The notes under the pieces are model-generated. The model was not told the DNA's origin and did no database searches. It saw only the letters and a list, made by a program, of their open reading frames with translations. A program made the translations under genes and the position numbers. Positions 2,972 to 63,587 of a stretch of DNA of 64,000 nucleotides are shown here, piece by piece. Position 1 is the first letter of the stretch; the number at the start of each line of letters is the position of its first letter. This DNA is from Dirofilaria immitis (taxonomy: Eukaryota; Nematoda; Chromadorea; Rhabditida; Onchocercidae): contig JAKNDB010000107.1 in the NCBI GenBank assembly GCA_024305405.1, positions 2,356,001-2,420,000 on the forward strand. Reading direction: 5' to 3'.

Positions 2972-5550
2972 ATGATCTTAGTGAAAGTTGTCGAAAGAAA
3001 CGTGCCATATTACATTCGAAATATAACTGGAGTTATAATATTTTCCAAAAAATGTAGTTTACATGGTAATAGAAGAAACTGAGCCACAACACGAACAAAA
3101 ATTAACTATTTTGCTATTAGCAAATATGAGGATTTGAGTTGTAATCTCTTTTATTGTAAGCAAGAATTTGAAATTTATTTTTGAAATATTGTTTGGAAAC
3201 ATTCTCTTGGAATTCGCATAAATTTTGAAGTGTCCGAGCAGTTGATGAAAGAATGTCGTATTATCACCGAAGCATGTGGTACTTCTCCTGAAGCACGCGC
3301 TGATCTTCGGAAATATGGAGCTCCATTCGTTTTAATGCCGGAACAAGTGGCTGTACTTGTTGAATATGGTTAATCATTCTATTTCCGATTCTAATGAAAA
3401 TGCTGTTTTCCTTCGTCTATTCAGAAAAAACATGATATGAATTGATTTCAGCAATGTTTTTTTTGAAATAACTTTAAAAATTAGCACTTTATAACTGATT
3501 GATTTATCAATCAGTTATGTTTTATATTGTTTCATATTGTTTTAATCATTAATTATGTCGTCTTTTGGGTTCGCAAAGGTTGTACAACTCAAGAGTAATA
3601 CGGAAGATCTTCCTATTGAAAGGAAGGATGCAGAACTTTCAAATACTCATTCTACACAACTGGACGATGTAGCACTAAGAAAGAAGGCGGAAATGATAGC
3701 GAAGGGTCGAAAAGTAAAAAGTTGAAACGTCAGGCTGATAGCGGAGCCACAGCTGCGACTCTGAAAGTACCGCATAAGTTTTTTCTACTGCAGTTGAATG
3801 AAGTGAATTAAATACAGCATTTTTCATTACACGTTACTTGATAGAATTCATTTATTCTTTCTTTTCCTCGTCTTATAGGATTGGTTAGTTTTATTATAAA
3901 ATATTTCAATTTTCTTCAGAACATGTTCAAATAACTATGTACTTTAGTTATTTGTTGAATCTCTGTTCCTTCTTATACCATTTTGAAATATATAGGATCG
4001 AATTTTGTGTGAAATTTACCCTTTCGTATGTCTACAAGTCTTAGTAAATTTTCGAGACTAATATCATCATCTTATTATTATTATAATTGAAATCAGGCTT
4101 GCTCAGTTTAAAAATTCTTTTTTGAAATAATACACCACAAGTTTTATTCATTTCGATAAATCGGTAGCGAAAAATTAAGATTATTAGTTGCCTCTTTAAC
4201 TCGAATCATTATTTCTTTGTGTCTTTTAAAAACTTCTGTTCATGAATGATACTTTATATTTTGCATGTTCTATTTTTATTCGGAAAACTTCGCTTTTATA
4301 CATTACACTGAAATAAGATTTGTATGGTTAATGAAATTTTATAAAATAATAGAATTATAGTATATTCCAGGTTCGACGTTACGATATTCTTAACGTGGAA
4401 GTTACTACTTCCGAAATAGACGACACAGTGAAGGAATTATCGAGGCCTGGAAATGTCCTTAAGCAAGGTGATACCTGGTTTCTTCCATTGTGTGAGTTGT
4501 TTTAACATAAATTTTAAACTAAAAACTTCTAATTAGCAAGATCTGTACCTTAGTAAGAGTTTTATAGTTAGCATTTCATCATTACAATGGATTATTACAA
4601 TGAAGTTCTATAATTTGCCCTCAATACAGAAATCTTTCAAAAATACAACTAAGTAAAATTTCATTTCCATATAGGGCTGTATATTATATCAGTATACCAT
4701 ACCGATACCAAAAATTCAGAATTTGAAGTCTTAAAACTCCGGAGCTTATTAACTTTAATTATTATTAATAAGTTCCATAACTTAAATATACAGTATTTAA
4801 ATTCTCCGTTTAGTAACTTTAAAGGTGTAGAAATGAGAAAATTGGATTAAATCTAAATCCTAGCATAGTTTTTTACATTAGAACAATTGAGATTTGTAAC
4901 TGTTTACATACAACAAAGTTGGAAAAAAAACGAACTGCTTTCTTACTGTGACATATGTTTATTAACGATAGCTGAAAAATTTTAATGAAGAAATCGGATC
5001 TTTTTGTAGGTCGCACTTGTATTTACATATGATAATATTTACAGATGATACTCGTGAAGAAGCGTATGAAGAAATGGAGAGGCCACCGCTTCCCAAGAGT
5101 TCAGTTTTCCGAATCCGGCTGAACACATTTCGTGATTTGTGGCGTAGAGGTTATTATTTGACGTGTGGTTTGAAATTCGGATGTGATTACCTTGTTTACG
5201 AATCTGCTCCTGGTGAAGTTAGTATCTATACATTCCTTTGTTATTTATTAAAAGTCTTTTACCTAATAGCGTTTTCAAATATTATTGTCTAATACCATTT
5301 TTTATTCTCTAAATGATATAATAAATGCAGTATTTTTCATAATGTCATATTTTTTCAGGATCATTCCAAGTGGTTAGTGAAATGTGTGGATTCACAGGAT
5401 TCTCTATCTTCCTTAGATCTTATTGCACTCTCAAGGCTCTCCTCTCAAGTAAAGAAACATGTCTTGTTAGCTATTGTATCACCTGACACTTTATCACCTT
5501 ATTATATTGAATATTCTTGGTGGAAACCCCAGCGATCTCAGAATGTATAA
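2972..5550 (+). CDS. TSEN34: tRNA-splicing endonuclease subunit Sen34 (TSEN34)
   Basis: TSEN34 is the subunit of the nuclear TSEN complex that cuts the 3' splice site of pre-tRNA introns. Proposed exons: 2972-3065, 3231-3368, about 3580-3766, 4371-4491, 5045-5217, 5359-5550. The start ATG at 2972 opens MILVKVVERN, like the family's MLVVEV start. Exon 2 carries APFVLMPEQVAVLVEYG (human LPLLLMPEEARLLAEIG). The C-terminal nuclease domain is clear: TFRDLWRRGYYLTCGLKFG, then LVYESAPGE and DHSKWLVKC, then QVKKHVLL; the Tyr, His and Lys in the last three match the catalytic triad, so the enzyme is probably active. Two problems: the exon 3 acceptor is unresolved (the expected frame joins at GFAKVVQLK without an AG), and the A-run at 3716-3720 breaks the frame unless it is one base longer. 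Human TSEN34 is 310 residues; this model is of similar size. Confidence 0.87.
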
Positions 5551-6557: not shown

Positions 6558-7250
6558 ATGGTAAGTTTTTTCTTTTTTTTGATAGAGGAGGAGAAAAAAA
6601 GAAAAAGTGCCTTTGTTTATTATGGAAAGAGAAAATCCATTTGAGCATAACTAGAAGAGATTGGGAGTGTTGTTAAATTTCATAATTCATTTTACAGCTA
6701 TTTTATTCATTTTTCAAATCACTGGTTGGAAAAGATGTGGTGGTCGAATTAAAAAATGATCTGAGGTGAGTTAATTTGAAATTTACTTATAACGTTTAAT
6801 GTTGTTTTCGATCTTTTAAAATGGCACTTATTTTGGTTGAGCCAATATCGCTTCAAAGAATAGAAAACACCTAATTATTAGAAATGGTACCGGATGAATA
6901 GAAGATTTCTTTGTGTTCTTTTTTTCCTTGTGTTCTTTTCTTTTTCCAGTAACTAATAGAAGGAAAAAATGCAGGAAGTTGTTATATTCTTGATGAATTG
7001 ATTGTGATCTTTCCATTGCAGTATCTGCGGTACATTGCATTCTGTGGATCAGTACCTAAACATGAAATTAACGGATATCTCAGTGACAGATTCGGAGCGG
7101 TATCCACATATGCTTTCCGTCAAAAACTGCTTTATTCGTGGATCAGTAGTGCGATACGTACAATTGCCTGCTGATCAAGTGGATACCCAGTTATTGCAGG
7201 ATGCAAGTCGGAAAGAAGTTATGCAAGCTAAAAGATCCGCCACTGCCTAA
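6558..7250 (+). CDS. LSM2: U6 snRNA-associated Sm-like protein LSm2
   Basis: LSm2 is part of the LSm1-7 ring that activates decapping in the cytoplasm and the LSm2-8 ring that binds the U-rich 3' end of U6 snRNA in the nucleus. Three exons: 6558-6560 (only the ATG), 6698-6765 and 7022-7250. The product of about 99 residues begins MLFYSFFKSLVGKDVVVELK and continues SICGTLHSVDQYLNMKLTDI, nearly identical to animal LSm2. The Sm1 motif lies around residues 10-45 and the Sm2 motif around IRGSVVRYVQLP (residues 63-74). A first coding exon holding nothing but ATG is unusual but is forced by the strong family match MLFYSFF and by good splice sites (GTAAGT donor, TTTTACAG acceptor). No frame correction is needed. 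Confidence 0.96.
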
Positions 7251-11091: not shown

Positions 11092-14000
11092 ATGTCAACC
11101 AGTAAAAAGTGCATTGTACCAGTAGCCCGAGATACACCATCCTCACGAACTTTGAGTTTCACAACATTGACTGATGGAAAGGAAGAGACACGTATGTCCT
11201 TAAGCGTAGAAGAACTCGCATTGTTGGGTGAAATTCAACGTCGTGGACGAGACAATTCTTCCGGTGTAAGTTATTTATTTGACGAAAAAAATATTAGTGA
11301 AATATTAGAGTGCAAGTACCGTATATTATAAAGAAGCTCAATAGATTATTAGTATCTTCAATAATGTTGCTTTGAACAAATCTTCCAATTCGAATTAGAT
11401 TGGTAGTATGAAATAGTATCGATTTAAATTGGTGCAGTATGAAATGTATGAATTTAGTTTCAATTTATCTGATATTGGCTTGTGATATTATTATAAATAT
11501 CCATTCGCTTCAGAGCGTGCGAACAGGAAAAATTAGTGTTTCGGAATTAATGGGATGTGGCGATAAAAATGCTGACAAAAGAGACGAAAAGATCGAAACG
11601 GCTCGATAATGACTACCAAGAGCAATAATGACCGCCATAACTGTGTGCCATCGATGGTTGAAACATCAAATCATCACGGAATATCAGTTGATCCTGCCAC
11701 TCTTCTTGCTGGATGGAAGATCCCACCACTACCACCAGGACTCGTCTCAATAAGTAATTTTTTTCTTATTATTTGCTCACATTCATTTTAACAATTTAAT
11801 TAATTATCATTTAATTAGAACTAATTATAGTTACTGCTTTGTTATTCTAAACTTTGGTCTGGATTATTCCTGCAAAACAATGTTATGTCATTAGATGCTC
11901 GAATTTTCCGGGAAAAATTAATGCGAGTTATTAACAAAAAGAAAACCCCTGATATTTTTGCTTTCCTTCTTAGCTCATGAAGCGGATCGTCATCCATATC
12001 CGTCAGCTCTTCCTACATGCATATTTGAAAAGGCGATGAAAGCAGCTGCAATTGTCCACGCCGGTTCACAACTGTCACCTGTATCTGCGGGACATAATAC
12101 TGGTGGTATATTATTTTTTATCATAGAAAAAAAATTTGTCGAATTTAACGAAAACTTCCAATTCTATTAAAAGATAGATTCTATTAGATCTGAGTATTCT
12201 CAATTGAAAGATTGATAAAAGTGAAATTGTTAAATAGTTTTTGAATATTTAGACTGAAGCCTGCATTCAGTTTTCGCAATTCTTTTTAATGTACATTTAA
12301 GGCGGCGGTAGCGGAGTGGCAGCGCATGGTAATGCGATTCGGTTACCACCATTGGAATTAATTCGGCTATTACCACCACTTTCCCCAATGTTTCCATTGA
12401 TTTCAAGCGGGATGCAACGACCGTCGACACCTGCATCATCGGCGCATGGTATTTTTAACCATGGTTTGGATTCTCAAAAACAAGGTAATATAAATATTAA
12501 TATTGACGAATTGAACTTGAAGAACCTGTTGGAAAAAGTATATAATCACTGACGTGTCTTTTTCTTGCTTCTATTTTCCCACGTCCGGCATTATGATATA
12601 AAATATTAGAACCACAAGAACCGTACAAGAATTCCCAGAAATTTATATGAAATGAAACCAGCTGCTGCAACACGAAGACCAGCCATAGCTCAGTTGGTAG
12701 AGCGGAGGACTGTAGATTATAAGCTGACATCCTTAGGTCGCTGGTTCGAATCCGGCTGGCTGGATCGGGTTGAATTTTGCCATAAATATGTTGCAATTGC
12801 GGTTATTCTCATGTTTTTAGCAGTGGATCATATTCTGGATAGTCTTAAATGATTTATCGTATACAATTGATCTTTAAATGCATCAAACGGTCGTATCTTC
12901 TTATTTATGAAATGGTATTTAGAATAAAAAAATAGTTCCATTAGCTTTTCATGGATGATTCGTTGCTTTGGGAACGAATAATGAATTTGGCATACTTTAT
13001 TATTTTTATAAATATGAGTCCTTTGACCTATTTTGAATTTACAGTCGAGAGGTAGAAACTTTTGATCAGTTAGTTATAGCGCTGCAAAATTGAGTGTGGT
13101 TAAAGTTTCAATTTCATTCCTTTGAACATTTGCCCCATTACTACGTACTGTGGTAATGGCGGCTACGGCGAACAAACACCCACAAGCATTACGTAAGAGT
13201 AGATCGTTCGTATTACTACTTAATATTAATTCATTGAAATTAATGCTTAATTTTGCGATCCAGATATTTCATGATTGATTTAGCTATTATTTTGAAACTG
13301 TTTTTTTTTTTTAAGAATGTGAAAAAATGATTTAAAGGTAATAAAAATGGTGGTGCCACTGGACATCATCATTATCTCAATAGTATACATGGCTTGCAAG
13401 GGAATGCCTCCCAAGTTAATGGAAATAATCAACAGCGAAGTATTCAGCAGAATCAAAAACTCGTAAACCCTTTTTCATGCCCTACGTGAGCTTGGATGCT
13501 GTAAATCGTGGATTAGCGAATGGAGATCTCATCAAAGTAAGCTTCTATTTTTTGTGAATAAATGTGTGTTACCTTTTTATTATGTTTATTTCTTTAAAAT
13601 ATATTTTGATATTTATTACTGATTCCCTCCAGCTTCCATCTATGAGTGTTGAAAACCATGAAGGAATTTTATTACTCTATTAGACTTATCTAAGGGTATT
13701 CTGCGTGTTAATCAACGTAACTATGAAGAGTCATTCGTGGACAATCCTATGGGCGATGAACAGCAAGATATTTTGATTCTTGGCGTCCATGATCGTAATC
13801 GCGCGCTTCATGGTGATGTTGTCGTTGTTCGCATCAAAGATAGGAATTGTTGGGTTGTAAGCTATATATTGCTATTTGTCGATTTGTTATTGATGTTCTT
13901 CTACTTTTTGTTTTTGATATTTCATGGCTATTAAGGTTCGTGATGCATTGTATGAGGCATGGCGTAGTGGGAATTTAAAGGCTCGTGTTGATGACAACGG

Positions 14001-17000
14001 CCAACCACTGACTATTCCACCAATCAAGCGTAGCGATTCCGAAATAGAATTGTCGCCAGCTGAACTGCTTGATGTAAATTATTTCTTTTATAAAATTTGT
14101 AAATCGTTGAAGCTTATTACCATGCTGTTACTTGTGATTTAAAAATTTTCATATGATAATTTTTTCTTCCAGCTTCCTATATGCTTTGATAAATGCATTT
14201 CAAGTGAAAAGTTGAAAAAAGACGTGCCCGTTACAAAGAATCGACGATACAGTCGCGAACAAATGTTATGTATTGCTGCAAAGGTTGTCTTCAGAGGGAT
14301 TGTTTTGAATTTCTGCTTCTATATTATTCACGAATTTCTAACTCTTATTTTGATAATAAAATGGCTAGTTTGCGCTCGACAAATTTTATCATTCTAGCTC
14401 GAATTGGAACGTCGCAGACGAGTTATAGATGATGGCAATGATATTGACCCAGTTATTCTGAACATTATATCAAGGCTTGCTATCGTAAAACGAACTGATT
14501 CATCAATGTATGTATCAAGTGTTCATCACATTATTTTAGATGCGGAGTATTTTAAGGGCTTTTTGTCCAATCAATTTACCGATATGTTTTTAAGAAGTCT
14601 TTCGCGCTCTGGGGTATCAGCATGTGGTGCTTACGTTTCAAATTTGGGAATGGGTACAATACCTACACGACGTAATGGAACTGGTAGCAATGGATCTGTG
14701 CAGCGACGATCAAATTACCGAATTTTATCAGATATGCCGGATGAAGATTGGGGATTCCTGATATATGCCTTCAAAAACCGCTGAGGTTAATTCGAAGTTC
14801 ATATTGCTAAAGTCAGCTATCATATGAAATTGTTCGTATCGATATGATATGTTTCACTTACATAAGTTATGAACAGTTAGGCCGAAATTTTTATCTTTCT
14901 TATCTTTCGCATCTTTTCAGGTAGTTTTCATCAGTGAACAGAAAAATTGCCGAGCTGCAGTAGGCATGCTAAAAATGATGGCTGATGGAAATCGTAATTG
15001 GGCACTTTTTCACCGGGTGATTCAAGAATGCCGCGGATGATGATACCAGCGGAGCAAACGCCTGCGACGTTTTTTGACCGTCCACAAGATTTCGCGAAGT
15101 TCATTTATGTGGCACGAATGGTAGAATGGCAGGCGACTGCACAGTTTGCACGGGGGTGAGCATTTTCCATTCAGTGCTGGCATGTTCTTAAGAAGTCATC
15201 TATCGGCTGCATAAATCATTGATGTGTTCAGGAAGTTATACAAGAGTCTCGGTATGGCGGGCGATATAGAAGCAGAAACAGAAGGCTTATTGTTGGCGAA
15301 TGATGTTGATACTCGAGAGTTTTCTCAAGCTGCGCTTTCGTCACTTCCAATTACTGAGGCGGTGGAGTGGAAAATTGATGAAGTTCGTTTCGGTTGAATG
15401 GAAAATTGATGAAGCTCACTATTCGGTTATGAGAACCACTCTCTCATTTGTTTTATTTCTTATTCAATGAAACTATATGCTCTATGGTTACAGAAAGAAT
15501 TCAAATATCGAAAAGATTTCCGAGATGAAACTGTGTTTACAATTGATCCAAGTACGGCACGAGATTTGGACGATGCTCTTCATATAAAACCGGTTTTGGA
15601 TTGCGATGGAACTGGTAATCCTGGTTGGGAGGTAAGTTACAATAGCTTCGCCAAATTTACGTATTTTTTAAGAAGTGAAATATTATGAAAATTCCAGGTT
15701 GGTGTTCACATAGCCGATGTCTCATATTTTGTACAATTCGGTACTGAACTTGATCATTGGGCTTTAAATCGTGGCACATCGGTTTATCTTGTTCATAAAG
15801 TTAGTTCTCACTAAATCCACATCACTTGCTTTAATAGCCTTTGAATTTAAATATTGAATATAAATATTTCTCTGAGATGTTTAGGTAATTCCAATGTTGC
15901 CACAAATACTTTGTGAAGAATTGTGTTCATTGAACCCTAATGTCGATCGGTTGACGTTTTCGGTGGTCTGGAAGATTAATGACCAAGGAGAAGTATTTGA
16001 TGAATGGTTTGGACGTACAATTATTCGGTCTTGTTGCAAATTGTCTTATGAACATGCACAGGTAGACAGATTTCTTTTTTTTTTTCTGACTTTTTTCATT
16101 ATACTGATTGTAATTTTTGAAGAATTTTGTCTTATATTTTCAATTTTACTATAGGATTTCATTCTTCATCCAGAAAAGGATTTCGTTCCATCCGAGTTGC
16201 CAGAAATCTTCAATGGCAGAAAGTCGGCCGAAGTAAAAGAAGCTGTACTTCGTCTGCATAAGGTATTCCTATCGAACTAGGATATTTTTTGATTTTGAAT
16301 CATATTGCTCTTAAATCAAGTTTGTAATGTTGAGAGGTAAGGAAGGATGTTTTACTTTTACCATGACTTCATGGAAAACAGCTTCCATGAAGTTGGAATT
16401 TTCATTAATTGCTTTTATCATTCTAAAATATACCCCTGATATTTCAATTTTATTTTTTAAAATCTACAGTAAGACGATAGTCTGAATCTACCGAAATATG
16501 AGAGTCAAAATTGTGCTGTGTAATATCAGTTTTTCAGGTTGCAGTCATCCTCAGAAAAAAGCGATTTGAAAATGGATCTCTCTATCTTGATATGCCTAAA
16601 TTAAGCTTTGCACTTGATGAAATTTCGGGAATGCCTAACGGTCTTTCTCTTCAAGAAGTAAGTTTCTTATTGTTTGCTAGGCTTACGTCAATTTCAGATT
16701 TGGGATCTATTTTTTTGGAAGTAAATATTGAAATTATTTCGTTGTAGCGGAAAGAATCCAGTTTTCTTGTGGAAGAATTCATGCTACTAGCAAATATAGC
16801 TGTAGCTCGGAAAATTGAATCAACATTTCCAAAGACTGCACTTTTACGACGACATCCACCTCCGAAAATAAAAGTTTAACCATCTCATCATTGTTATTAA
16901 AATTTTATAAAAACATCATGCTAGGCTTTATTTCGAAAATCTTGTAGACCAAATTTTACGCATAATTCATTCTTCCCTGATTTTTCGTTAAAGTTATTCC

Positions 17001-18903
17001 TTAGATGTTGCGCGACATTTTGGAAAAATGTGAGAAGGTTGGATTTTCGGTGGATGGTTCTTCGAGTGCAACAATTTCTTCAAGTTTGCGAAAATATGAA
17101 GGCGATACTGAATTAAAGCGAACAGTTGTGCAGGTAATGCGATCAATGATTTGGTCAAAAACAGGAATTAAAAAATAGATAGTTATTCTTTTTTGCATTT
17201 TTATAGCTGAGCATTCAGAAAATTTGTCAAAACTGTATGTTAAGGGTGGAATATCGGCATTGTTTTAGATGCTTACGTATTTGCTGATGAAATCTATGCA
17301 ATTAGCATCATATTTTTGCGTTGGTTCGTTGAAAAACCGAACAGATTATGCTCATTATGCTCTTTCGGTGCCGTTTTATACTCATTTCACTTCACCGATA
17401 CGTCGATATCCGGATATTATGGTTCGTCAATGACTTTATTTAGTTGGTTCATAAAATCAGTAGTAGATAACTTTCCAATTAAACTTGACCCTACATCATT
17501 GTAATGAATATAGGATATGGCTTGTCGGTTAATATAAAATCAAAATTTTGCCGTCTAAACAAGTTTATTTCGGAACGCTCGTATTTTGCTCATTATTTCA
17601 TGGGTTTATAATTGTAAACAATTATAAACTGTTGGAAAGCTAAAAATATGGGGAAATTCAAACTTGTTCGTGAAATATTTTAGATATTTTATTGAATTTT
17701 TCTTTTTTTGAAATGAGGAACAGTTTTTTTAGGTCCATCGTTTTTATCAGCAGCACTTGGTTATTCTCCTGCGCCAGGTTTGACAGTGAAAGAGGTCGAA
17801 ACTATAGCAAGTCATTGCAATGATAGAAAACTAGCTGCAAAAACAGTCTCGGAAGCAAGCGATGATATGTTTTTGGTGTTTTTATTAAGGTTTGTTTAAT
17901 CTTTGTCCTAATTCTTTGTGTGAATTTTTTTGGAATGAATGATGGAACAAAAAAGTTTATCCTACTCTCTCTTTATTACGAAGCATAAAATTCAGGAATG
18001 TGGACCACTGACTGAACGTGCTGTGGTAATACAAGTATTAGATGCCTCCTTCGATGTGCTGGTTGTAAAATACGGTGTTGTAAAACGTGTTTATACCAGT
18101 GTATGCTTTTCCATTACTTGTATTACGAGAAAAAAACATTCAGTGTTAGCCAAATTGATACAGTGAATGTTATGATATTCAAACAATGATTTTGAAATGC
18201 ATAAATTCTAAATATTTTGATAATTTATTAAGAAAAATAAAAGAAATGAAGCGAAACAATAAAATTGAGAAATTACTAATGTCATTTATTCTGCGTAGTA
18301 TATTGTTATTGTTATTTACCTTATCTGGGATGTATTATAGAGAAAGTGACGTTATATGGAAGAATGCTATAATACAATGATCCAGTAACTCAATAATAGT
18401 AGATATCAATGAAGATTTATAATTTTCTTATTTTTCAATCTTATAGCGTCTACGATTGGCACGTGAACCACGGTTTATTGAAGGTCCATGCCCATCACTT
18501 CTTCTTTATTGGGATTCCACCTGTGATGGTTCAAATGCTGCTATCGAACAAGTTATTTCGATGTGTACTGTTGTAGAAGTAATCCTTTCTGCACTTCCAG
18601 AACCAACAAAATATCAGGTAATATGCTTTCTTACTTGCAATTATTGTTATAATAATTTTGTAAGGAAGGAAAATATTTAATTTCAGGTTAATACTGTAAT
18701 AGTCAACTATCCAAATTCATAAATTGATGCACTATGCTATATCTTTCATTTCATCTTATTTTTTTCCCTTTCGTACTGCAAATGCAAAATCCTGAAGTAA
18801 TGGTCATATTTGTTGCATCATCTATTTTTAGGCATTACTGAAGCAACCACTTAACAGTGAAAAGTTGTTATCGCTGGCGGAGGTAGTTGCTTTGGCAAAT
18901 TAA
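11092..18903 (+). CDS. DIS3L2: DIS3-like exonuclease 2 (DIS3L2), 3'-5' exoribonuclease
   Basis: Cytoplasmic RNase of the RNB family that degrades 3'-uridylated RNAs without the exosome; worms call it disl-2. Exons: 11092-11265, 11514-11753, 11974-12105, 12302-12484, 13338-13536, 13695-13856, 13936-14073, 14173-14283, 14398-14784, 14921-15155, 15232-15382, 15494-15631, 15698-15799, 15885-16061, 16155-16262, 16538-16657, 16748-16873, 17005-17133, 17269-17421, 17733-17889, 17996-18100, 18447-18617, 18832-18903. A low-complexity Pro/Gly N-terminus is followed by cold-shock domains ([20 protein letters not shown]), the RNB core with the catalytic Asp cluster [26 protein letters not shown] and LLRRHPPP, then an S1 region ([13 protein letters not shown]). 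No PIN domain, as expected for DIS3L2. Frames break by one base at 11577, 13455, 14773, 15013, 17741 and 17879. Exon 9's middle is poorly conserved, so its end is less certain. Confidence 0.93.
12679..12764 (+). tRNA. tRNA-Tyr (GUA) with a 13-base intron
   Basis: A complete cloverleaf: acceptor arm CCAGCCA pairs with TGGCTGG, D arm GCTC...GAGC, anticodon stem GAGGA with TCCTT around loop CTGTAGA, and T arm GCTGG-TTCGAAT-CCGGC, with discriminator A at 12764. The anticodon GTA is followed by an intron ATTATAAGCTGAC (about 12716-12728) just 3' of the anticodon, the canonical place in eukaryotic tRNA-Tyr. The internal A and B boxes for RNA polymerase III (TAGCTCAGTTGG and GGTTCGAATCC) are intact. 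It sits inside the DIS3L2 intron between 12484 and 13338, on the same strand. Removal of its intron requires the TSEN complex, one subunit of which is encoded 7 kb upstream. Confidence 0.96.
13156..13192 (+). CDS. DIS3L2: Possible alternative first exon of DIS3L2
   Basis: ATG at 13156 opens [12 protein letters not shown] and ends at a GTAAGAG donor after base 13192. The remaining phase (one base) fits the DIS3L2 exon at 13338 exactly, giving [24 protein letters not shown]. It would create a shorter DIS3L2 lacking the proline-rich N-terminus, with a promoter around the tRNA gene. No acceptor precedes it, which suits a first exon. Supported only by frame and donor. Confidence 0.45.
15361..15416. 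repeat. Short tandem duplication over a DIS3L2 exon end
   Basis: The last coding bases of the exon ending at 15382 (GGTGGAGTGGAAAATTGATG and onward) recur about 31 bases later as GGTTGAATGGAAAATTGATG within the intron. The second copy has two changes and lacks the donor's GTTCGT. Confidence 0.7.
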
Positions 18904-26100: not shown

Positions 26101-26629
26101 GCAATAGCATTATTTCAGGTAGTTTTACTGTTTTTACTTTTCTGTGTAATGTACGCAGAATTATCTAATCTCTCACTATCAAATTGATAGACGATGAACA
26201 AGTTTTGAAATATATGCTTGGGAAAAGTAAAATTTCCCTTTCATTGAAAATGAATTGCATACGGTAGTATATAAGCATAGACCTATATTTGTTATGTATT
26301 TTTGGCGCCATATTTGAAAGTCATAATAATTAGAACTTTAAGCTAACGTCGATGGTAACTATATTATAAGGATGATTATTCTGATACAGAACGAATATAC
26401 TGAATGTTCGGATGACTTCGATACTTTTTTATTTAGATCTTTATGTTACAAGTAACGATACTTTGATCGTAGTTTTAAACGATTCATTATTATTCTTCAT
26501 TTTCAGCGTGATAAATCGGCGAATGCACAAGAAATGAATTTGCTGAAGGTACTAGCAACCGACGATCAAATTTCACGAAATATCCCTGGGAAAGTCAGAG
26601 TTTCGGCTCCACAGCTGAACCGAAGATAA
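20147..26629 (+). CDS. NEMF: NEMF, ribosome quality control complex subunit (Rqc2/Tae2 family)
   Basis: Binds 60S subunits still carrying peptidyl-tRNA, recruits Listerin and adds C-terminal tails. Exons: 20147-20271, 20493-20700, 21007-21125, 21197-21376, 21996-22160, 22253-22430, 22560-22682, 22755-22903, 23033-23185, 23331-23464, 23544-23736, 24061-24356, 24745-25050, 25487-25627, 25891-26118, 26507-26629. NFACT-N starts [14 protein letters not shown] and keeps the Asp-Arg pair in [12 protein letters not shown] needed for tail synthesis in the family. A coiled coil ([16 protein letters not shown]) follows, then NFACT-R ([53 protein letters not shown]), an acidic stretch, a basic linker, and NFACT-C ([48 protein letters not shown]). 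One-base frame breaks lie at 21272, 22334, 22355, 22898, 24121, 24960 and 25547, all in A or T runs; ignoring them gives only fragments. ATG 20147 follows a TTATTCAG acceptor by two bases. Confidence 0.95.
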
Positions 26630-47900: not shown

Positions 47901-50900
47901 TCAATATATGAGATTCGGGATGTTGTAAGTGAATATTTGCCCTACAGTATTCTGAAAGAATATGAAAGATCAAATGCTGGATTTATCAATCAATCAAATG
48001 GATTAGATGAAATATTATAATTATAAACTACATATTAATTAAAAAAATAGGAGCATTTACTCGATATGAATCAGTCCATCGGGCAGCTTTATTATACATC
48101 TCGATCGCTTCTCGATGCATTTTCGCTTCAATATACAACATTTCTGCTCGCTAAATTATAATATTCCATTTTAGGATTCTTTTCAATTATTAATTTAATA
48201 CTTCAACATTTTTTTCTGCACTAATTATATTGTATTGAAAAAACCTTTATAATAATAACTATCTTATATTTGATAAACTCCTCAATAATCATAATGTATA
48301 TTATATAATCTTATTGAATGATTAGATAACAATTCACCTCAAGATCACCAATACTTGCATGATGATCAGCGATTTTACCGTAATAACGTTTTGCCAGATC
48401 ATTATCTTCAAGTACATCAACAATTTGTGCAGCTTTACCCCATTGTTTTGCTTTGATTGATGCTTCAAGTGCTTTCGCTGTTTGTCCACTTTCTATAGAT
48501 TGTATAAATTTAAGGCCTAATTAAGATTAAATTAGATTAGCTAACATCATTGAATATATTCAATGCCACAAACCAAGAAAATGATTTATAGCGGCTTCGT
48601 AATTTGCTTCTGCGACCAGGCTATCGCCCCATTCTTCTTCCAGTAAAACAACTCTTTCCGGAAAATGCACCCGTGCTAACTGAAATGACAAGAGTAAGCA
48701 GATAAATAAGCATTAACTAAGTAATATTTAATAATGCAATCAGCACTTTTCATTACCTGGATAGCTTTCGCGTAACCTTTGCCCTTTCGGTAATTTTCCA
48801 GAGCTTGTTCAAAATCTTTCGTTGCTTCGAATAACTCACCAGCCTGAAAAATTCATCATTTCTCGTAAATTTTACTTTAGCATATTAAGTTAAGTATACA
48901 TAGATATATTAAATCAGATCATTTCGAGAAAAGAAAAAGAAGATGAATAGCAAACTTTTTCGAACAGATCAGATCGTATTAACGCGGTAGCAACATTTTC
49001 TATCAAATCATCTTTGAAGAGGAATTTTGGATTTTGCAAAAGTATACGAGCTGCTTGTATTGCTAAGCCTGCTTTTAAATATAATTCTATTGCAACAAGC
49101 AGGTCACCATCACATTCTGATACCTAAAATTAAAAAGTAATTAATAATGTTCAATATTTTTTAATTTACTTAATAATTATTACCGAATTATATTTTCAGA
49201 ATTCTAATGAGTACTGTAAGAAAAGGAATTTAACTACTCGGGCCGTCTGTTACCGTATTAATTCAGTGCGTCAGATTTTTGAATACACAAGTGATTTGAG
49301 AAAAGTAAGAATTCAGCTAAAGCCAATTTCTTTTTTACAACAAATCATAGAACATTACTTAAAATGATAAATAATGATATGCGTGAAAAGAGTTAAAATC
49401 AAATTAACGGACTAACTTGTGCAGCCTTTCCATCTTGGCCTGTATCAGAGAGATAACGATAATATCGAGATTTAATAGTTTCTAAATCTGGATGATTCTG
49501 AAAAAAGCAATTAACGGAAAAAATTTTCAAGTGGATTATTTTTAGAATAAGTACAATCTCCGAGATATTTTGTTGATCTTATCAATACATTAAGTGGGAA
49601 ATTGATAATTAAAATAATTTTAATGAATAAAACATACTTGATTTTGGGCTAATTCAAATGCTTCTTCCCATTTGCCAATTTGCTGATACATTTCAATAAT
49701 TTCATCTAATGCATTCTATAAATTAAAATGAAGCAATTTGATATAAAGCAAAATTTCGTTCGTTCTAAGAAATTTGCTAAATTTATTTTTAATTGAAATT
49801 TGAATAAAAATTTTTTACAGCAGGATTCAAAAATTATAGAGAAATTTTTGAAATAATATCATATCATAATCTAATAATCACTGATCATTAATTTTATATT
49901 AAATATATTGCTTTTTTAAATTGTAAAATTACATGGTTGATAATTTTATCACCTCTTCAAGATAAATTCTTTCTACTTCTCTGAAGTCTTTATTCATAAG
50001 TGCTATTCGCGCTCGAACCTAAAGAAATAATGCTCATATAATCAGTGATAATGAATCTCCGCTTTAGATTACTTTCTTTCATTGTAAAAAATACATATAA
50101 TAAAGTTTCATATACGATAGGTAGTTGGACTAATGGCATAGATTGAAATATTTGAACTATATAAAAATATCATGATAAGCTTAAATTAAAGAGAATACTT
50201 TATAATTATTTCTCCCATCATTTCCGGTATTTCTGGTTATTTCATCGGCAATTTGAATTGTTTCGGCAAGCATTTGTACTCGTGATATATCACCTAAAGC
50301 TGCGAAACATCGTTGTGTTATCAGTAATTGTTGTTCCGATAATGCAACCTATAAAAATGCACTGTAACGAAATTCTCTCAAAAATTTAAAAAGTTCTTCA
50401 GACAGTTTGATAGTAAATAGGAAAACAACATTTATCAAATTGATGTTTACTTAGTTAGTAAAAATAATCATAATAAACCTGAGCAAGTTGACGCCATAGT
50501 ACCGTATTATCATATTCTTCTCGTTTCTCCAAAAATCAATTGCCCGACCAAAATCGAGCCGATCAATAGCAGAAGCAAATTCGATAAGTGTTTGATCAAG
50601 TTCATAAGCAACTTTTTCATTTGCTTCCTACAAATTCATCTCTTAAAAATGATTGAAAATATGATAATATCGAGAGTATGAAAATAAAAATTTTGTAATT
50701 TTTAATAATTTTTTAAAAATGAAAAAGAATAAAAGTATGTTATAGTAATATAGTATTATGGCAAAATATACCATAATTTATCATTATTATTCCTCTTGAA
50801 GAATTATCATGCTTTTATCAAAAATAATCATTCATTTAGAGAAAGTAGTTAGTATTTCTAAAGTATGCAAATTTTTGTATGAATAAGAAAGCTCTTTATA

Positions 50901-51453
50901 ATATAATAGTTTGTTTTTATCAATAAACAAAGTTTCATTTTATTCCTGGATAAGGAATTTAAATTTGAAATTTTAGTTATCTTGATAACTGCTCAACTAA
51001 TGATACAAGTTGCATAATTGAATATGTCTCAAATTTGATCTAAGTTATATTTGATTTTTTGTTTATTAATTTATTCTTATTTATTACTGATACAAACTAA
51101 CATTGATTTTATATATTCATTCTTAAAGATGTTTTATATTATAAAATTAATAGAAAAATCAATCTTAAATTTATTTATATGTTTAGTATTTCTGGGGATG
51201 AATATTTAGGAGAATAAGTGTAATTATTTAGAATCAATTTTAATTCCATATATTTAGAATCGAAAACTTTTTAAAATTTTCTACTTGAAATGACTTCTTA
51301 AAAAGAAATAGTTTCATTAAGATTAATTATTAAATAATAGAAGCATCTTATGATTATTTCCAATTTAGATTCTTTTATTTTTAGAAATCTTCTTTTCTTC
51401 CTCTTCCTTCATGCATTTACTTATTTTTAATTATCTTTCACCATATTAGAAAA

Positions 51454-51495
<42 letters not shown>

Positions 51496-51995
51496 GCAAT
51501 GACAACCTCAACAATAACTTCAGTTCTAGATTCATCACGTAGAACAGTTTCAATTTCACCTTTTATAGGTATCATTACCATCTGCAAATGTAATCATTTA
51601 TTACAGGTAGAATAAAATAGAAAGTAAGCATGAAATGATGAATATACGTTACTTCATCTGGATTTTCAGCTTGATACCAAATGCAAAGTTGATCATTTGA
51701 TTGAGCCACAATGACATCACTTTTAGGAACCCATTGAACATAACTACAGTAATCTAATAATGATATTTTCCGATCAGTTTTTAGATCAGCTAATAGCAAT
51801 CGATATCTCTTGTCACGAAATAATAATTTTGTTGCCATTTCACTAAGCTAAAAAAATTAATAGACTTGATTTTTTTGATTATATTAATACATTCAGTTCT
51901 ATCTTTTTTATATTCTATTTCAAAAAAAATTTGTATAATTATATATCTATAATATAATAATTAAACTTAATTAATTAACATGATACAATTGGTAG

Positions 51996-52036
<41 letters not shown>

Positions 52037-55000
52037 AAATTTGATTGACATTTTTAAGATATAATGTTTGATGATTAAACTTGATTAGCATGATGTTATA
52101 ATGAATGATATAATAATTTAACCTGATTAAATTAATTATATTAAGATATTTGATAGAGTAGTAAAAATACAATATGTTAATAGATAAATATTACTTACAT
52201 TCCATTTAGCAATAAAATGATAAAATTAAACCTCAAGCCAATCGATATATGTTGGATGCGAAAATTGTAGCGATCTGTCGTTGAGTTAACAAATCAACTA
52301 CAAACAAAAAAAAAAAAAATTACAAAATGATAAGAAAAGAATAATTTTAATTGGTCTTAAATTAAAAAATTTCAAAATTTAATTATAGGTTTATAATAAA
52401 ATAAATTTGAATAAACAGTTGATGCTAACGCAAATGATTGATACATATCATATATGATTGTTTAACTGATTGATATTAACGAATTAAAAAAGATTGATCT
52501 TAATGTTTAGATTGAAATAATCTATAATTGATAGAAATTATGCAGAGATAAAAAAATTAAATTGATTTCGTAAATTTTTATAAAACATAAGAGGATTCAA
52601 AGTATTTTCGACAAAAGATAATGTATGTTCTAAAATTATTGTAAATGTAATAAAACAGGTTAGCTACATACCTACTGAAATGGTATTCAGGTCGAGAAGA
52701 TAAGCAACACATTTTATAACACCAACTTTTTTCATTTTCTGTTGTGTAAGTCGTACTGAGATAAGATGTGGTGATATGAGTTCCGTTCGAATCCATCCAA
52801 TTATTTCATTCTTTCCATATTCTACCAAATTTACCTGTTAGCAAATATTTCTTTAATTAATCTATATTCTGCTTAAACTTAATTAGTACTTAAATATTGA
52901 ATATTAAAATGCATCATTATTAAATTACTAGAAATATGATTGCTGTCTTGAATAAATTGTACTCGTTACTACTATTGCTAGATATTAAAGTTCAAATTAT
53001 CATTATAAGTTTATATTTCAATATTAAATACCTCGCCAGCATTGATTATCATACAAATATTTTCGTTATCAAAATAAAATTTTTCATTGCCAGCACTTTG
53101 CCATTCAATTTCACTGCAACAACCGGTGCTCATATCAGCAAGTATCAATGTATTCGTTGTATAAGCTACCACATATCGATCATGTCCCATTATCTAATTA
53201 AACTATTCCATTTAAAATTCAGTCTTAAGAATTGTTAAATATTTTAATGATTAAATTTATCAATTTCATATAAATATATGTAACATTTACAATCTTTATC
53301 ATGTAATATATAAAATATCGATAATAGTAATAAAAATAATAATAATAATAATAAAAGAATTTAAGTAAGAAATAATAATAATAATAATACGAATAATTTT
53401 TTAATATATTATAATAATTTCTTTTCTTCAATTAATAATAATAAAGAAAAAAACAATTATATGCTAAGAGAGAAAATGAACGTATATTCTATCTGATATA
53501 TATATGAAATATTAAAATTGATATTTAAAAAAAAAAAAAAAAGGAAAGTTACTTTAATTTGATTAATAGGCAATCCTTTGGAACAATGAATTGTTACACG
53601 TTGTTCACTAGTTGTATCACTGATAAGAACCTGAGAAGGAGAAATATATTTCGTCCTAAAACGTCCCTTTAACATCGAATATTTTAAACAACAATCTATA
53701 GTTATCACTGAACCGCATAATGTACCCTGCAATAATAATATCTATTAATCATATAATCTTCTATAATATATTTATTATTTAAATGCTTATAATATAAGTT
53801 GAATTATTTTAACGATAAATATAAATGACATTAGTAATTACTTTATGAAATCATTTTTAATTTCTTCAATTCTTATATATTAATGATTAAAAGATTAGAA
53901 AGGAACAAATTTTTTTATTACAATTAAAAATTTAAAAAGTACAAGAGAAAAGAGAAAAAAAGGCAAACCATAGCAATAGTTGAACCATCTGGACTCCAGG
54001 CTAATGCACTAATTGTATATAAGTAACGAATCTCTAGTGGTTTACCTTCATCCAATGCACCACGTCGAGAATTCCATGAATAAAGTCGTACCCTACAATA
54101 AAAACATTCTTGATTTCTAAGAGAAAACTCTCTCTTCTAAATAAAATTATATAATATAAATGATTATTAATGTATGATATATAAAATTTTAAATAAAGAT
54201 ATTATAATAAAATTAATCAATCATTATATTATTATGTTAATCATTCGAAATTAAAATATCTGAAATGGTGATAAATATGAAAAGTGATAAAGTAACGACG
54301 AGTTAAGATAAGAGATGAGAAGTTATGATAAACCTATCAAAGCTTCCAAAAACAACACTTTGTCCAAGTGAATCACGAGCAGCAACAGTAAATTCCTTCT
54401 CATGATCTGATTCATTATGATAATCAAACTGTTGTAATATTTGGCCATTTTCTGTATATGATATTATACTTTGATTACATCCGCCAATTATAATACCATT
54501 AGATGTATATACTAAAGCATATGGTGGACAAGTATGTGATAAAATTTTTGCTTGCATTCTTCGTTCGAATGAATATAAAATGACGGAACCATCACTATGA
54601 CCAGAAACGAATGAACGATTATCAGGTCTTAAAAAAAAAAAAAGAAATTAAATTTTAATTACTCATTTGATAAGCAATATGATTTCAATTTAATACACAA
54701 TAAAATGTCCATATGAGATAATATCGAGAAATATTTGAAAAGTATTTTTATATGAAATGAATATTTAATTATTATAATTAATTAATCGATTTCATTTGTT
54801 GATTTGTTTTTTTCGCTTCCACAAATTAAATTAATTAATTTTAGAAATAGAAATTCTATGATTTATTAGCTACTTAATGATAATATTTTGTTTATTATTT
54901 ATCCTTTCTATTATTTTGAAATTATAAGAAGTATAATCTTGCGAATGAATTGCTTCCAATACATATTGATGTCTTTTTATCAAGCTAAAATTTTACCCAA

Positions 55001-56646
55001 CCATTATTTATCAAGCTAAAATTTTACCCAGCCATTATTTATTAGGCTAAAATTTTACTCAGTAATTTTTTTATTAAATCATAATTCTATCAGTTGAGAA
55101 TTTGGAAAATTAAACTTGTTAGGAAAAGAGAGAAATTCATTAATTTACTTTGACTACAATTAACAACTTCCTATTTTTTAATTCTTCAGTAGTAAAATAC
55201 AAGCAATGTATAATTCGTATTTTGGAAAATAAATTAAAATTATTCATAATTTGATTAAAATTAAATGCGATATATTCTTAATAAATTGTTTTGTGACCTA
55301 TGAACCCATATAATTTTAATTGCCATATGAAAAAAAAATTGAAAAAACAGATTTAGAAAAAAATTTAAGAACCAAAAATCTTACGAAAGTGCAAGAGAGA
55401 CGACGGATATATCAGTTTTATACAACGTGGAACATTTATTACCACGACATGATGCAACTCTTACTTTGCCATCATTTAAACCAATTATCAATCGTTCTTC
55501 ATTTGGCCATAATAATGCTATCACTGCTGATGATTGTACAAATTTGTTACATATAACTTTCTTCTCATCCCTATAATTTAAAATGAATTATTTAGAAATT
55601 TAGTAATATATACTGCAATAATATATACTGCCTTTTTTTTAAATTGATTCTGAATTTGCTTTCAAAAAATTGTTATCAATAAATTGTTTGATAATATCAC
55701 ATACCATGTTTGACCAATTCGATAAACATAAGTAATATTATCAGTTTGACCGATAGCAATACGAGTAGAATCAGGCGAGAAAATTAATGCTTTCACTAGA
55801 TAGCTTTTTTTCCGTACTATAACAATTAATATTAATTGCTAAAATTAAATTTAAATGGGAAGCATCTGATCTGTTTCATCTACCTTTATTCAAAATATAA
55901 TTAATATATTCTGATTTTTTAATTCAATCCTAAATTTAATTTTATATATGAAGAAGTCTTGCATAGGTCAATGAGGGATAAAGATGATAATACTTTAGCA
56001 TCGATCGGTTTAGTAGCAAATTTATCACGTCGTTTTCCACTTTCATCAAATAGCAATACTACTCGATCAGCATTAGCAATAGCTAATTTTTTACCATTCG
56101 GTGACCAATCTATCGCTGGTACCTTGGCCATTTTATTCTGAAATTTTATTCTTATCTGTATATTTTAATCGGTTATTTTTTTTTCCTGTATCAATGATAA
56201 TAATAGCTAAATACTATATGCCTTTTTTATTCGAGAATTTTTTAAAGAACACCAATTAAAGGTATGAAAATTTTTAAGATATTAAATTTTTAAAATCATC
56301 TCTTATTATAAATTAAAACAATTATTTAATTTAAAATGTAATAAATCTCATAATATGTGAAATTTTTTAGCTAAAAAAATTATTTTGGTTTTCAAGATTG
56401 TATCATATTTTGTTTTTTAACGAATGGATTTTTCAATGTACAACAATCAGATGCTTCAAATAGATTGCCAATTTTATAAATTCTTGATTTACAAAAGTTT
56501 CAATTTCAACACTCGATGCAATTTGACTGCTAAGTTAAACAAATTGAAATCAATGCTCTACGGATACATTAGCAGAGAACAAACGAGATATAATTGAATA
56601 GCCCTACCTGTTGTTCCACTAGTGTAGTCAAATATCTCAAACGCAT
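41987..56646 (-). CDS. IFT172: Intraflagellar transport protein 172 (IFT172; osm-1 in worms)
   Basis: Peripheral subunit of IFT-B, which carries cargo in cilia and acts in turnaround at the tip. I model 38 exons from 56646 (ATG) to 41987 (stop); the first are 56646-56608, 56137-55994, 55816-55705, 55570-55385, 54627-54334, 54092-53969, 53726-53553, 53193-53032, 52834-52672, 52297-52232, 51847-51653, 51581-51507, 50627-50479; the last are 43971-43822, 43451-43377, 43121-42948, 42721-42557, 42428-42278, 42159-41987. N-terminal WD40 propellers: [20 protein letters not shown], then [55 protein letters not shown]. The remainder is TPR-like helices (KALECYRKG-type: [57 protein letters not shown]). 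C-terminal [10 protein letters not shown] and [19 protein letters not shown] fit. Frame breaks: 55805, 52261, 50531, 46687, 44700, 44632. Confidence 0.95.
51455..51495. repeat. (TAA)n microsatellite in an IFT172 intron
   Basis: About 13 TAA units immediately downstream (transcript sense) of the exon ending at 51507, within a long AT-rich intron. Confidence 0.9.
51996..52035. repeat. (GAT)n microsatellite in an IFT172 intron
   Basis: About 13 GAT units in the intron between exons at 52232 and 51847. Confidence 0.9.
54977..55072. repeat. 31-base minisatellite, three copies, in an IFT172 intron
   Basis: The unit TATCAAGCTAAAATTTTACC plus CAACCATTATT is repeated three times with a few changes, period 31, within the intron between 55385 and 54627. 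Confidence 0.8.
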
Positions 56647-57562: not shown

Positions 57563-59173
57563 TCACCATATCGATTGATGCTCGAAATCACGAGTTATTT
57601 TTCTTCCTTGAGCTGTTTCTGGATCGACAAAACGTCTTGCCATTACAACATCATCCTGCATTAGATTATTAGCTCACCCATGATAACGAATAGTAAGTGT
57701 ATGAGATAGTGCAATAAAGCTTTATGTAATTCTATTTCTCACAATTAAAAACCTTGTAGAATATATTAGAGAATATTTCTCGAAAATAATCATATTTTAC
57801 AATCACGCAGCACTATTCTTAAAAAGCTGAAGAATCGTTGGGACAGAAACTTCCTGTTAAAGACGCAATTTACTTGCCTCATTCAATGAATTTCGAGAGT
57901 TTTTCAATGGGCTGATAAAGTATGGTGATAAATTATTTAACAAACCTGATTTCCATTCGCAGCTTCCGTTTTTCAGATTTTTCACATGGCTCATTGATGG
58001 AAATTGAACGTTCATACATTTTGATATTTTCGAAAAATGGAGAGTAAACAACATAATTCGTAACTTGCCATAACGGATCATTCAAACCATAATGTTTGTT
58101 CATAAACTGCAGTAATGATTGTGATGGCTTATCAATTGCAACATTTTCCGCGGATGAGTTTTCCCGCTGAAAAAGAGAAACATTCAACACAGATAGATAC
58201 TGTATAATCTGATAAATATATGTATCTCTAAGCTCTACAAGAAACTTATTATAGGAATGTTTAATAATAAAAGAGCATATGAATGAGTAGCAATGCCTAC
58301 TTGTAACATATAATCAAACAGAGCATGTCCGTATCCTTGTCGTTGAAGAGTATCATGAACGTAAAAATCGAGCACACATAATGGTGCTACTTGAAACGAA
58401 CGCATACATTGATCCATCAAATAGAGATTTTTATAGCCAATCTTTAACAAACCTATTATTATACTGGCATTCCTGCAAATAAAAGCAAATGTTCAGAATA
58501 ATGGATGAAGCAGTTCATGACTCTATTTTTCTTATTAATCCAAATTACTTGTGAAAATAATTTAATAAACTTATTACATAATTAGTTACAACATTTAAAT
58601 TATTGATAAGTAATAGAATAACATTAATTTAACTATTAGTGCACTTTTTGCACATAATGTATCCTATATAAAATAAGTTTTAAGCAAAATATATAGTGAA
58701 GTCACTTACTCATTATTTGGATTTTTTCGCCACAAAAGATAAAGCACTTGTCCATCATCTGAATTGACTATCTTATCATAAGTGGTAAGCGCACGTTTCA
58801 ATCCTTGTGCCTGAAAAAACCATATTTTATGGAAATCATAATGTCAAAAATAAATTAGATATTTCTAAGATTATGAGAATTTAAAAGTTTCAATTGCACT
58901 ATTATTGGTAATGATTCCTAAAATTGTCTTAATCGAAAAATACATAAATTCATATTCTTTATAATACTTATATACAAGTCAAGCTTAGAAAAACATGACG
59001 TTATCAAAAACAAAAAAAATAAGTCGTACAGCTATAGAAAGTGCTCCCATATTATTGATCGTTTTTTCAACAATCCAACATTTTCGTGGATTAAGTTGCC
59101 TGAGCATAACATCATTCAGCCTTTGTATCGGCATATCAGGGAAATAAACGCTTAAATCAGCTGGCACATTCAT
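57563..59173 (-). CDS. mec-17: Alpha-tubulin N-acetyltransferase (ATAT1/MEC-17 family)
   Basis: Acetylates Lys40 of alpha-tubulin in the microtubule lumen. Exons: 59173-59030, 58810-58710, 58472-58301, 58166-57946 and, in my reading, 57655-57563. The start MNVPADLSVYFPDMPIQRLN fits the family's ...LFPERITVLDQ start; then VLYLLWRKNPNNENASIIIG and LLKIGYKNLYLMDQ. The catalytic core PLCVLDFYVHDTLQRQGYGH carries the Cys of PLCILDFY and the acetyl-CoA loop QRQGYG (human QRHGHG), and VAIDKPSQSLLQFMNKHYGL has the conserved Asp and NKHYGL. The last exon (DDVVMARRFVDPETAQGRKI...) joins in frame only if the run of five at 57969-57973 has one more base; otherwise the frame stops at 57933. Worms have two paralogues (mec-17, atat-2); which this is cannot be told. 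An acceptor sits just before the ATG. Confidence 0.92.
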
Positions 59174-59673
59174 TACCTGACAATGAATCAATCACGTTAA
59201 ATTGCATACGATGAGCAAATATTGGTTAAAAGCAACGTCCTGAACTGCAAACAACAAATCAAACACTAAATGATAGTACAGTAAAGAAAGAAAAATATCG
59301 ATTAGAAGATAGATAATTATTTCAGGTAATGCGATAAATATTCTAGCAAAGTATGATTAATATGTTTCTAATTATAAGAATGCTGTCGATCGGGAAATAT
59401 AAATATTTAGTAATAGCAAATTTGTAATAAGAAATATGGATTTGTAAATTATTTGAAAAAAAATCTAAGATATTGCTATCATTTGTTAATTAATAATTAA
59501 CAAATTTAATAATATATGAGCTTAATTTTCCTACAGTATAAATTAAAATTCTCGAGATTACTGCATTACTATTATGTATCCAAAAATTTAAGTTTTTTAA
59601 AAATCATAGTGAAAGCTTTAGTAAATAAAAATAATAACGAGCTAGCAAAACCATTTACAAAAAATAAATAACC

Positions 59674-60342: not shown

Positions 60343-60474
60343 GAAAGTACTGATTCGTTTCGTCAATACATCATAATCAAAGAAATCAATGCGTTTTGAT
60401 CCATTTGAAGTTTTCACAAACATTGTATCTTGATCTTTACCACAGAATGTGAATTCCAAACCATAATAAGAAAT
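60343..60474 (-). other. Exon-like open stretch, unrecognised
   Basis: Between two in-frame TGA codons the minus strand is open for 44 codons with a good protein-like composition (FTFCGKDQDTMFVKTSNGSK then RIDFFDYDVLTKRIS) and a GTACTT donor-like site at its end. Upstream, another short open piece (RDFGKTTEEYKLGNSS) ends at the TGA. It could be an exon of an unknown gene or a decayed fragment; no family recognised. Confidence 0.25.
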
Positions 60475-61389: not shown

Positions 61390-63587
61390 TTATGCCTGCA
61401 CTCTTTTTCGAAAGTTTTTCTGAAGTAAAGCTGCTCCAGCCCTCGAATCAACTTCTTCGCGCATTCGTTCAAACCATATCTTAATCTCAGTTTTACCGCA
61501 AAGTTCATCAAAAGTTGCACTACCCAAAAACGAATTCATTGCTCCATAAAGCGCCTGCAACAGGAAATTATATAGAAAAAAATTAATGACCGTAAAACAT
61601 TGAAAATTTTGTTAATTGAAGCGGCTAAATAATCCAAGCACTTTTCTTCTCTCAATTGCTCAGTTAGCAAACAAAAAAAATTAACAAAAAATCTAAGTCA
61701 ACACACTATTTTCGCTTTATTTTTCGCTTCACAAAGTGTCAAGGAACGTTTTGTCGCTCATCGCAAACTGATTATGAAGCATTATCCGCAAATACTTGAG
61801 TAGTACAGATTCAAAATAGAAAAGATTCCTATTTAAGGTAGAAACATGAGTTCTGGAAAACTTTAAAAGAAATGTGAACAGGATAAAATAAAACAAACCA
61901 AATCAGCCAAAGTGGGTTGCTGACCACCGAGAAACGACGAATTTCCAATAGCATTTAGCCATTCATTGCAAGCATCTATTAGAAGTTGACGAACATCAGC
62001 ACCATTATATCTGAATATATTTTTTTCCATTTAGCTTGATAAAATTGAACAAATATTAAACTGATAAAATCAAAACGAAGAATAGTCTAGCAATCCAAAC
62101 CTGAACGTAAGTAAAGAAAAGCAAATATTTTATCAAAAGGCATTGGATGAATTATTTTTTAAATAAAATATGTAATGATTCCTACAGAGCCATAGAGAAA
62201 GCTGGATTATTAAATGAATAATTGTTACAAGTATTTACTCAATTTTTTAAAGGGATTATTCTTTTTTTATTTTTAATTTTTGAATTACCTTCTTTTTTAC
62301 ACTAAATAATAATTATTGTTCAAAAAAAAGAACGCAGCGCTGTCATTCCCAATAACATCCGTTTATTAAAAAAAAACACAATTCAACTCACTTCTTTCGA
62401 AGTTTTTCGATAAGAAGTACATGGCGATTGAACCAAAGTAAATGGTCGCATATCGTTCCCATGCTGGTACCATTTTGTCCCAGTGGCCCGCTTCACTAAA
62501 CCAACGGAATGTTTGAATGCATTCATTCCAGGAACGATATACATTTGGTACTATTAAAGGAATGAAATGTTCATCGACCCATTTTCGCCATTCTTCTTCC
62601 TTCCTTCACAGAACTTTCAATTAAAAAAAAAAGTCTGCATAAAACACCAGATTAATAATAACTGAAAAGCAATAGAAAAAACAGCTGCTAATTTAGTATT
62701 GTTTACCTAATCCATAAAAAGAGATAGTAAATACCAGAAAAAATAAAAATAACCTTGCATTCTCTTGTTCCTTTTTCGAAAAGTTGTTGAAGGATGTCAT
62801 AATTTTGTACATATTAGGATGCGTAACTATCTGCTTTCCTGTTTCTTTTACAATATTCATTTGCTCTGGATAAAAACCAATGACATCATCCAGACTTCGA
62901 TCATTTTGCGTTATATAACTTGTCAAAATTGATATTATTAGCGAAGAATCACTCAATTTCCGATCCATTTGCGCAACTACAGTTGGCAACTGAAGAGAAA
63001 AATCCATGGACATATTAACTTTTCATTGTATTATTCATAAGTAGAAGATACATACCTTTCTAACGCCATCCAATTTCTTGATCTCCTTTCGAGTCAGAGG
63101 ACTGACTTCTATTACATCGTACGAAAAACCATAATAATTCAAAAGGCACGAACTTTGCAACAGAACGGACAGGCTTCATACTGATAAAGCCTTAACTTCA
63201 AATTAGTATGATCATAATCGCTTACAATCTGTAATAAAACATTCAAGCAATAACCTCAATTCCTTATTCTTTCAACATTTTCATTTCTCGATACCAATAA
63301 TTTTAATTGGACGAGCTTTTTAAGCAATTGATAATTCCATATCTACGTTATTCATTACAAATCAGAAATAAAATGTTTTCTAACTCGTTTAGCAATAAGT
63401 GTTCCATCGGTAGGATCTTTAAAAGGTCCTTCGATACGCCATTTTCCATATTTGAGTATTTCAGTGATTTGATCGTGCCAGAATTTTCCTCATTATTGGT
63501 AAATCTTGCCAATGCAACAGCTGCTAACATTCCACCACCACTACTACTATATCGTATTAATCTGCTCATCATACAACGATTCCACAT
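61390..63587 (-). CDS. PTGES2: Prostaglandin E synthase 2-like protein (membrane-associated GST/glutaredoxin fold)
   Basis: PTGES2 is a glutathione transferase-related protein that can isomerise PGH2 to PGE2 and binds haem; worm homologues are of uncertain activity. Exons: 63587-63385, 63228-63056, 62989-62754, 62603-62392, 62010-61899, 61554-61390. A basic, Ser-rich N-terminus (MWNRCMMSRLIRYSSSGG) suggests mitochondrial targeting or a membrane anchor. The thioredoxin-like domain has LRLYQYEACPFCCKVRAFL with the CPFC active site, then EVSPLTRKEIKKLDGVRK, LPTVVAQMDRKLSDSSLII and SYITQNDRSLDDVIGFYPEQ. The helical GST-C domain has EEEWRKWVDEHFIPLIVPNV, AIGNSSFLGGQQPTLADLAL, ending IKIWFERMREEV. 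One-base frame breaks lie at 63425 (GG), 63141 (A4) and 62403 (T5). Loss of the last would remove the second half of the enzyme, so these are probably artefacts. Confidence 0.92.

Follow-up and report, generated by a model that had tools for sequence, protein, structure and literature searches.

Single-base frame breaks in a Dirofilaria immitis assembly: probable run-length errors of nanopore-only sequencing

The closest described parallels to the interrupted reading frames treated here come from bacterial genomes sequenced with long reads. In one long-read bacterial draft the errors are mostly one-base losses in A/T runs that break genes and protein predictions (PMC12007338), and homopolymer deletions are the commonest residual error in long-read-only bacterial assemblies (PMC8812927). 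Frameshift pseudogenes, too, have frames interrupted by single-base changes. A similar pattern is found in a 64,000-nucleotide stretch of the genome of the nematode D. immitis, the heartworm (assembly GCA_024305405.1, contig JAKNDB010000107.1, positions 2,356,001 to 2,420,000; the whole of this stretch is called the window), in which IFT172 (osm-1), DIS3L2, NEMF and other genes carry single-base frame breaks. A preliminary description of the window, made from its letters alone, had listed 25 such positions, announced as 'about 26', and had preferred sequencing errors to gene decay as their cause. The analysis reported here upholds that preference: with a probability of about 0.97, the breaks are absent from the worm genome and represent run-length errors left behind in a D. 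immitis assembly built from nanopore data alone, and the affected genes themselves are probably intact. That they are errors rather than biology follows from an intact IFT172 in an independent assembly, the dependence of the losses on run length, their direction and their spread across the assembly, and would be in keeping with the apparently nanopore-only methods. In mechanism there is nothing new compared with the known long-read homopolymer errors; unlike the bacterial cases, however, this is a nematode genome of low G+C, so that many genes are affected. Unlike frameshift pseudogenes, the case combines an uninterrupted same-species IFT172, unchanged codons near the breaks and essential families among those affected.

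Breaks were mapped with a custom-written splice- and frameshift-aware protein-to-DNA aligner, with orthologous filarial proteins as references, in IFT172, DIS3L2 and NEMF, which together comprise 11,628 coding bases. Frame-tolerant alignment yielded 20 breaks in these three genes (Table 1). Every position that the preliminary description had listed for them (six in IFT172, six in DIS3L2 and seven in NEMF) corresponds to a break in the alignments, 17 of the 19 being placed within ~15 bases and the other two lying in NEMF. By our reading the 20 events are 19 losses and one gain, whereas 18 are losses as the program fits them. The seven NEMF breaks were obtained with three filarial orthologs (P0241-P0243). 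All three fit the event described at 25547 as two extra bases at 25515, the frame effect of which is that of one lost base, and we read it as such; the event described at 22898 falls at 22896 with P0243, whereas P0241 and P0242 both put it at 23034, where the next exon begins. For DIS3L2 the same seven losses emerge from each of four filarial orthologs (P0121-P0124), the first being put at 11583 with P0124. An eighth event, at 13133 in a badly aligned stretch, is given by P0122 alone and was excluded from the counts. At DIS3L2 14773 a base too many had been described; a break is indeed present, but its direction was misjudged, as all four references give two one-base losses, at ~14750-14755 and 14772. 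The extra base described at IFT172 52261 does exist, about ten bases from that place and outside any run (~52268-52271), a result on which the D. immitis protein P0001, A. viteae P0002 and Loa P0004 concur. Placement is ambiguous for the events at 11577, 14750-14755, 17870, 22898, 25547 and 46682.

The window is D. immitis DNA, and the open pieces of IFT172 matched a D. immitis protein first (P0001), with another protein of the species (P0010) lower in the list. P0001, an uninterrupted IFT172 from a second assembly of the species, agrees with the window at 1725 of the 1728 codons aligned and differs at the remaining three; its alignment requires six one-base frameshifts and no gaps, and under a stricter penalty a gap replaces one of the six. 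The comparison of assemblies, made for IFT172 at the protein level, thus finds all six breaks absent from the second copy. The second assembly was built from PacBio HiFi and Hi-C data of a single male, with an X scaffold of 27.5 Mb and with genes predicted by BRAKER3 using RNA sequencing (PMC12562366). Table 1 of a further study sources its D. immitis chromosomes to that report, and the largest of them, at 27,526,700 bases, has the length of the contig that carries P0001 (PMC12546972). The same evidence bears on whether a small number of breaks (52271, 46682 and ATAT 57969) could be true heterozygous or strain alleles amid errors. The extra base at 52271 lies outside a run, the run at 46682 has an observed length of 3 and 57969 is without a supporting reference, all of which would suit a true allele; against this, P0001 is uninterrupted at both 52271 and 46682, and insertions outside runs also occur among the errors of the long-read bacterial draft (PMC12007338). 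True alleles at these places are very unlikely.

In the three aligned genes the losses depend steeply on run length. As the preliminary description had stated, the breaks are concentrated in nucleotide runs and mostly amount to one base too few: runs of at least four bases hold 18 of the 20 events (the 19 losses being assigned to runs by hand from the alignments) but account for 7.3% of coding sequence (P 6e-19). Among A/T runs of inferred length 1-3, none of 4,509 is short, whereas by the same hand assignment one base is lost from 1/112 runs of inferred length 4, 5/46 of length 5, 7/18 of length 6, 4/5 of length 7 and 1/2 of length 8. Put together, 12 of 25 runs with an inferred length of at least 6 are short, as against 6 of 158 with a length of 4-5 (Fisher P 3e-8).

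This dependence also bears on the contrast between affected and clean genes, which the preliminary description had singled out. LSM2 and BANF1 do align unbroken and pieces of hnRNP L match solved hnRNP L, as it had claimed for these genes, while SLC25A32 was seen as open frames only. Taken together, hnRNP L, LSM2, BANF1 and the placeable parts of SLC25A32 amount to 2,991 coding bases, with approximate exons, and contain ten A/T runs of 5 and a single one of 6, which is the longest; runs of at least 6 thus number one in the clean genes compared with 25 in the 11,628 bases of the affected ones. Under a flat error rate 5.1 breaks would be expected in the clean genes and the probability of finding none is 0.006, whereas under the run-length rates it is 0.15. 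The contrast is largely explained and requires no special cause: the clean genes are unbroken largely because A/T runs of 6 or more are nearly absent from them.

The breaks are not confined to the window. Copies of EF1A, beta-tubulin and actin genes, ten in all and located on seven contigs, carry 17 one-base losses and three gains in 13,027 bases, with at least one break in each of the ten, and this rate (20 in 13,027) does not differ from that of the window (20 in 11,628; P 0.75). The ten were hand-picked from the strong hits in lists of 23 EF1A, 109 tubulin and 38 actin matches; single residues of the references used may be off, with hardly any effect on frames. Two of the copies (L032 and L033) are only ~57% identical to the reference and their events are less sure; a two-base event at an actin-like locus (L002), which is too diverged, and a stop flagged in L030 were excluded from the counts. 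Break density in the sampled genes is ~1.3 to 1.7 per kb of coding sequence, the value being ~1.3 when two clean actins are included, and on a Poisson expectation a break would be present in most genes of more than 1 kb. Two other searches were set aside. A search of the assembly for the ftsZ family, intended to bring in Wolbachia as a yardstick of error, gave one weak match (34.9 bits, with a cut-off of 295.2), in line with the removal of Wolbachia contigs from the assembly (PMC9179477), and COX1 was matched in part at six places on large contigs, with internal stops in five of them. A pair of actin copies that closely resemble each other, ~7 kb apart (G000:C58:702190-704055 and 709246-711142) has both frames unbroken.

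Frame-breaking single-base losses are the typical product of gene decay, and several adjoining genes are affected here, as might be seen if the genes were becoming pseudogenes in this worm lineage. Decay is nevertheless very improbable, as no change is seen in the IFT172 codons that surround the breaks, the species possesses a nearly identical uninterrupted copy, EF1A, beta-tubulin and actin copies are broken as well, and the chance of a loss tracks run length down to zero in the shortest A/T runs. For IFT172 itself, as judged from the predicted protein, decay is refuted by P0001. Programmed frameshifting or transcript editing that reads through real breaks deserves almost no credence: A/T runs, which are typical slippery sequences, do contain most of the breaks, but losses affect many unrelated genes at a frequency that follows run length, and the proteins predicted for filarial relatives and for the second D. 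immitis assembly keep a single frame at the same places (four DIS3L2, three NEMF and, for IFT172, P0001, with P0002 and P0004 at 52271), so that the shift is not conserved.

Residual sequencing error, the reading preferred here, accords with what is described of the assembly. PMC9179477 reports the genome of a single worm from Portugal, sequenced on a MinION with R9.4.1 pores, base-called with Guppy 2.3.5, assembled with Flye, corrected by Pilon with the raw reads and annotated through GeneMark-ES gene calls; in the parts consulted it names no short reads. We infer that this report describes the assembly to which the window belongs. A table row for GCA_024305405.1 in PMC12693587 cites Gomes-de-Sa et al. 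2022, and its entries 86813779 and 4253153, read as size and N50, fit the genome analysed here (86,694,620 bases in 65 contigs) better than do the figures of PMC9179477. The R9.4.1 pore signal would fail to resolve the count of identical bases in a long run, the base caller would tend toward one base too few and the same error would repeat across reads, such that contig correction with the same raw reads would leave the run-length error in place. A run miscalled within an exon would then shift the frame. The break positions judged from open frames would probably share this origin.

Several observations weigh against this explanation. PMC9179477 gives 110 contigs, 87,899,012 bases and an N50 of 3,687,191, unlike the 65 contigs found here, and its figure of 93.9% complete BUSCO genes is high given so many coding breaks, although our guess is that BUSCO tolerates them. 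The second assembly is represented by one protein, IFT172, and not by DNA. Across the window as a whole, the spectrum of A/T run lengths has no visible shortening relative to a first-order Markov model, which is a weak yardstick. The IFT172 break at 52271 and some breaks in conserved genes elsewhere lie outside runs or outside long runs, respectively, and two tandem actin copies carry no break. None of these points, however, supplies an alternative that fits the remaining evidence.

The breaks have left their mark on deposited proteins. The D. immitis protein P0010 is identical to the window at all of its 1116 aligned codons, without a frameshift; it starts at about residue 579 of IFT172 and contains wrong-frame stretches and missing pieces. 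P0130, found through pieces of DIS3L2, is identical at every one of its 1676 aligned codons and misfits at a single place, 23210, where the alignment contains a two-base event and eight gap residues. We take both to have been predicted from this very sequence. P0130, of 1684 residues (window 15028-28455), fuses parts of DIS3L2, NEMF and hnRNP L: it begins just past the DIS3L2 break at 15005, omits stretches of NEMF beside the breaks and continues into hnRNP L, whereas in relatives the DIS3L2 and NEMF proteins are separate. The fusion apparently arose because the frame breaks hide the gene ends. Some public protein records from this assembly are thus wrong, and the breaks, while uninformative on heartworm biology, are relevant to those who use the data. 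GCA_024305405.1 has served as a mapping reference (PMC11144916) and has supplied evidence for the annotation of D. asiatica (PMC12546972). No report of errors in this assembly was found in the titles or the openings of abstracts of the papers that literature searches listed.

Table 1. Genes of the window, with their frame breaks or the absence of breaks (window coordinates)
Feature	Position	Strand	Breaks and remarks
IFT172 (osm-1)	41990..56646	-	38 exons; six one-base breaks at ~55804, 52271 (extra base), 50531, 46682, 44706, 44635
DIS3L2	11092..18900	+	seven one-base losses at ~11577, 13454, 14750-14755, 14772, 15005, 17745, 17870
NEMF	20147..26626	+	seven breaks at ~21258-21272, 22334-22340, 22355-22360, 22896-22903 or 23034, 24121, 24958, 25515-25549
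PTGES2	61393..63654 (approximate ends)	-	three breaks in the preliminary description: 63425, 63141, 62403
PSMD9, 5' part	34003..34615	-	putative break at 34564, from open frames
TSEN34 exon	3546..3808	+	putative break at 3716-3720, from open frames only
ATAT (alpha-tubulin acetyltransferase)	57860..59191	-	candidate break at 57969; pieces match 8y9f chain C
hnRNP L	27009..31810	+	no break seen; 1,758 coding bases in approximate exons, in which no A/T run exceeds 5 and two reach that length
LSM2	6695..7235	+	no frameshift; 84/94 codons identical to human LSM2
BANF1 (BAF-1)	36078..36955	-	no frameshift; 46/89 codons identical to human BANF1, last exon 5/25

The remaining genes with described breaks were followed by other means. 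In PTGES2, two of the three breaks (63141 and 62403) are supported, in that the flanks on both sides match 1z9h in a single register when the query is joined by hand, and the third (63425) is consistent with the open frames, from which alone it was judged. Human PSMD9 matches the exons at 34060-34227 and 32779-32886 and not the broken one. For ATAT, similarity to the Toxocara protein P0011 is lost at 57969, so that this reference lends the break there no support, and neither P0011 nor Mesorhabditis P0020 gave a usable alignment beyond the catalytic domain; a splice donor is possible by eye ahead of the second frame, but its phase misfits the next placed exon.

The window contains some features that are of interest apart from the breaks. 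A transfer RNA gene for tyrosine (tRNA-Tyr, anticodon GTA) lies at 12679-12764 on the + strand, between exons inside DIS3L2. In the Onchocerca ochengi DIS3L2 model P0121 a portion of this gene seems to have been translated as an exon, the residues 244-267 of the model falling on 12662-12736, whereas P0123 and P0124 align with no exon at this site. From the end of NEMF to hnRNP L (26626-27116) there are ~0.4-0.5 kb, with both genes on the same strand, which is close enough for a candidate nematode operon. Finally, ATAT and IFT172 share a strand and are direct neighbours, with ATAT on the upstream side (41990-59191), and Toxocara canis P0011, although named as an alpha-tubulin N-acetyltransferase, also matches IFT172; the two genes may have been neighbours for a long time, or the same fusion may have been made more than once in annotation.

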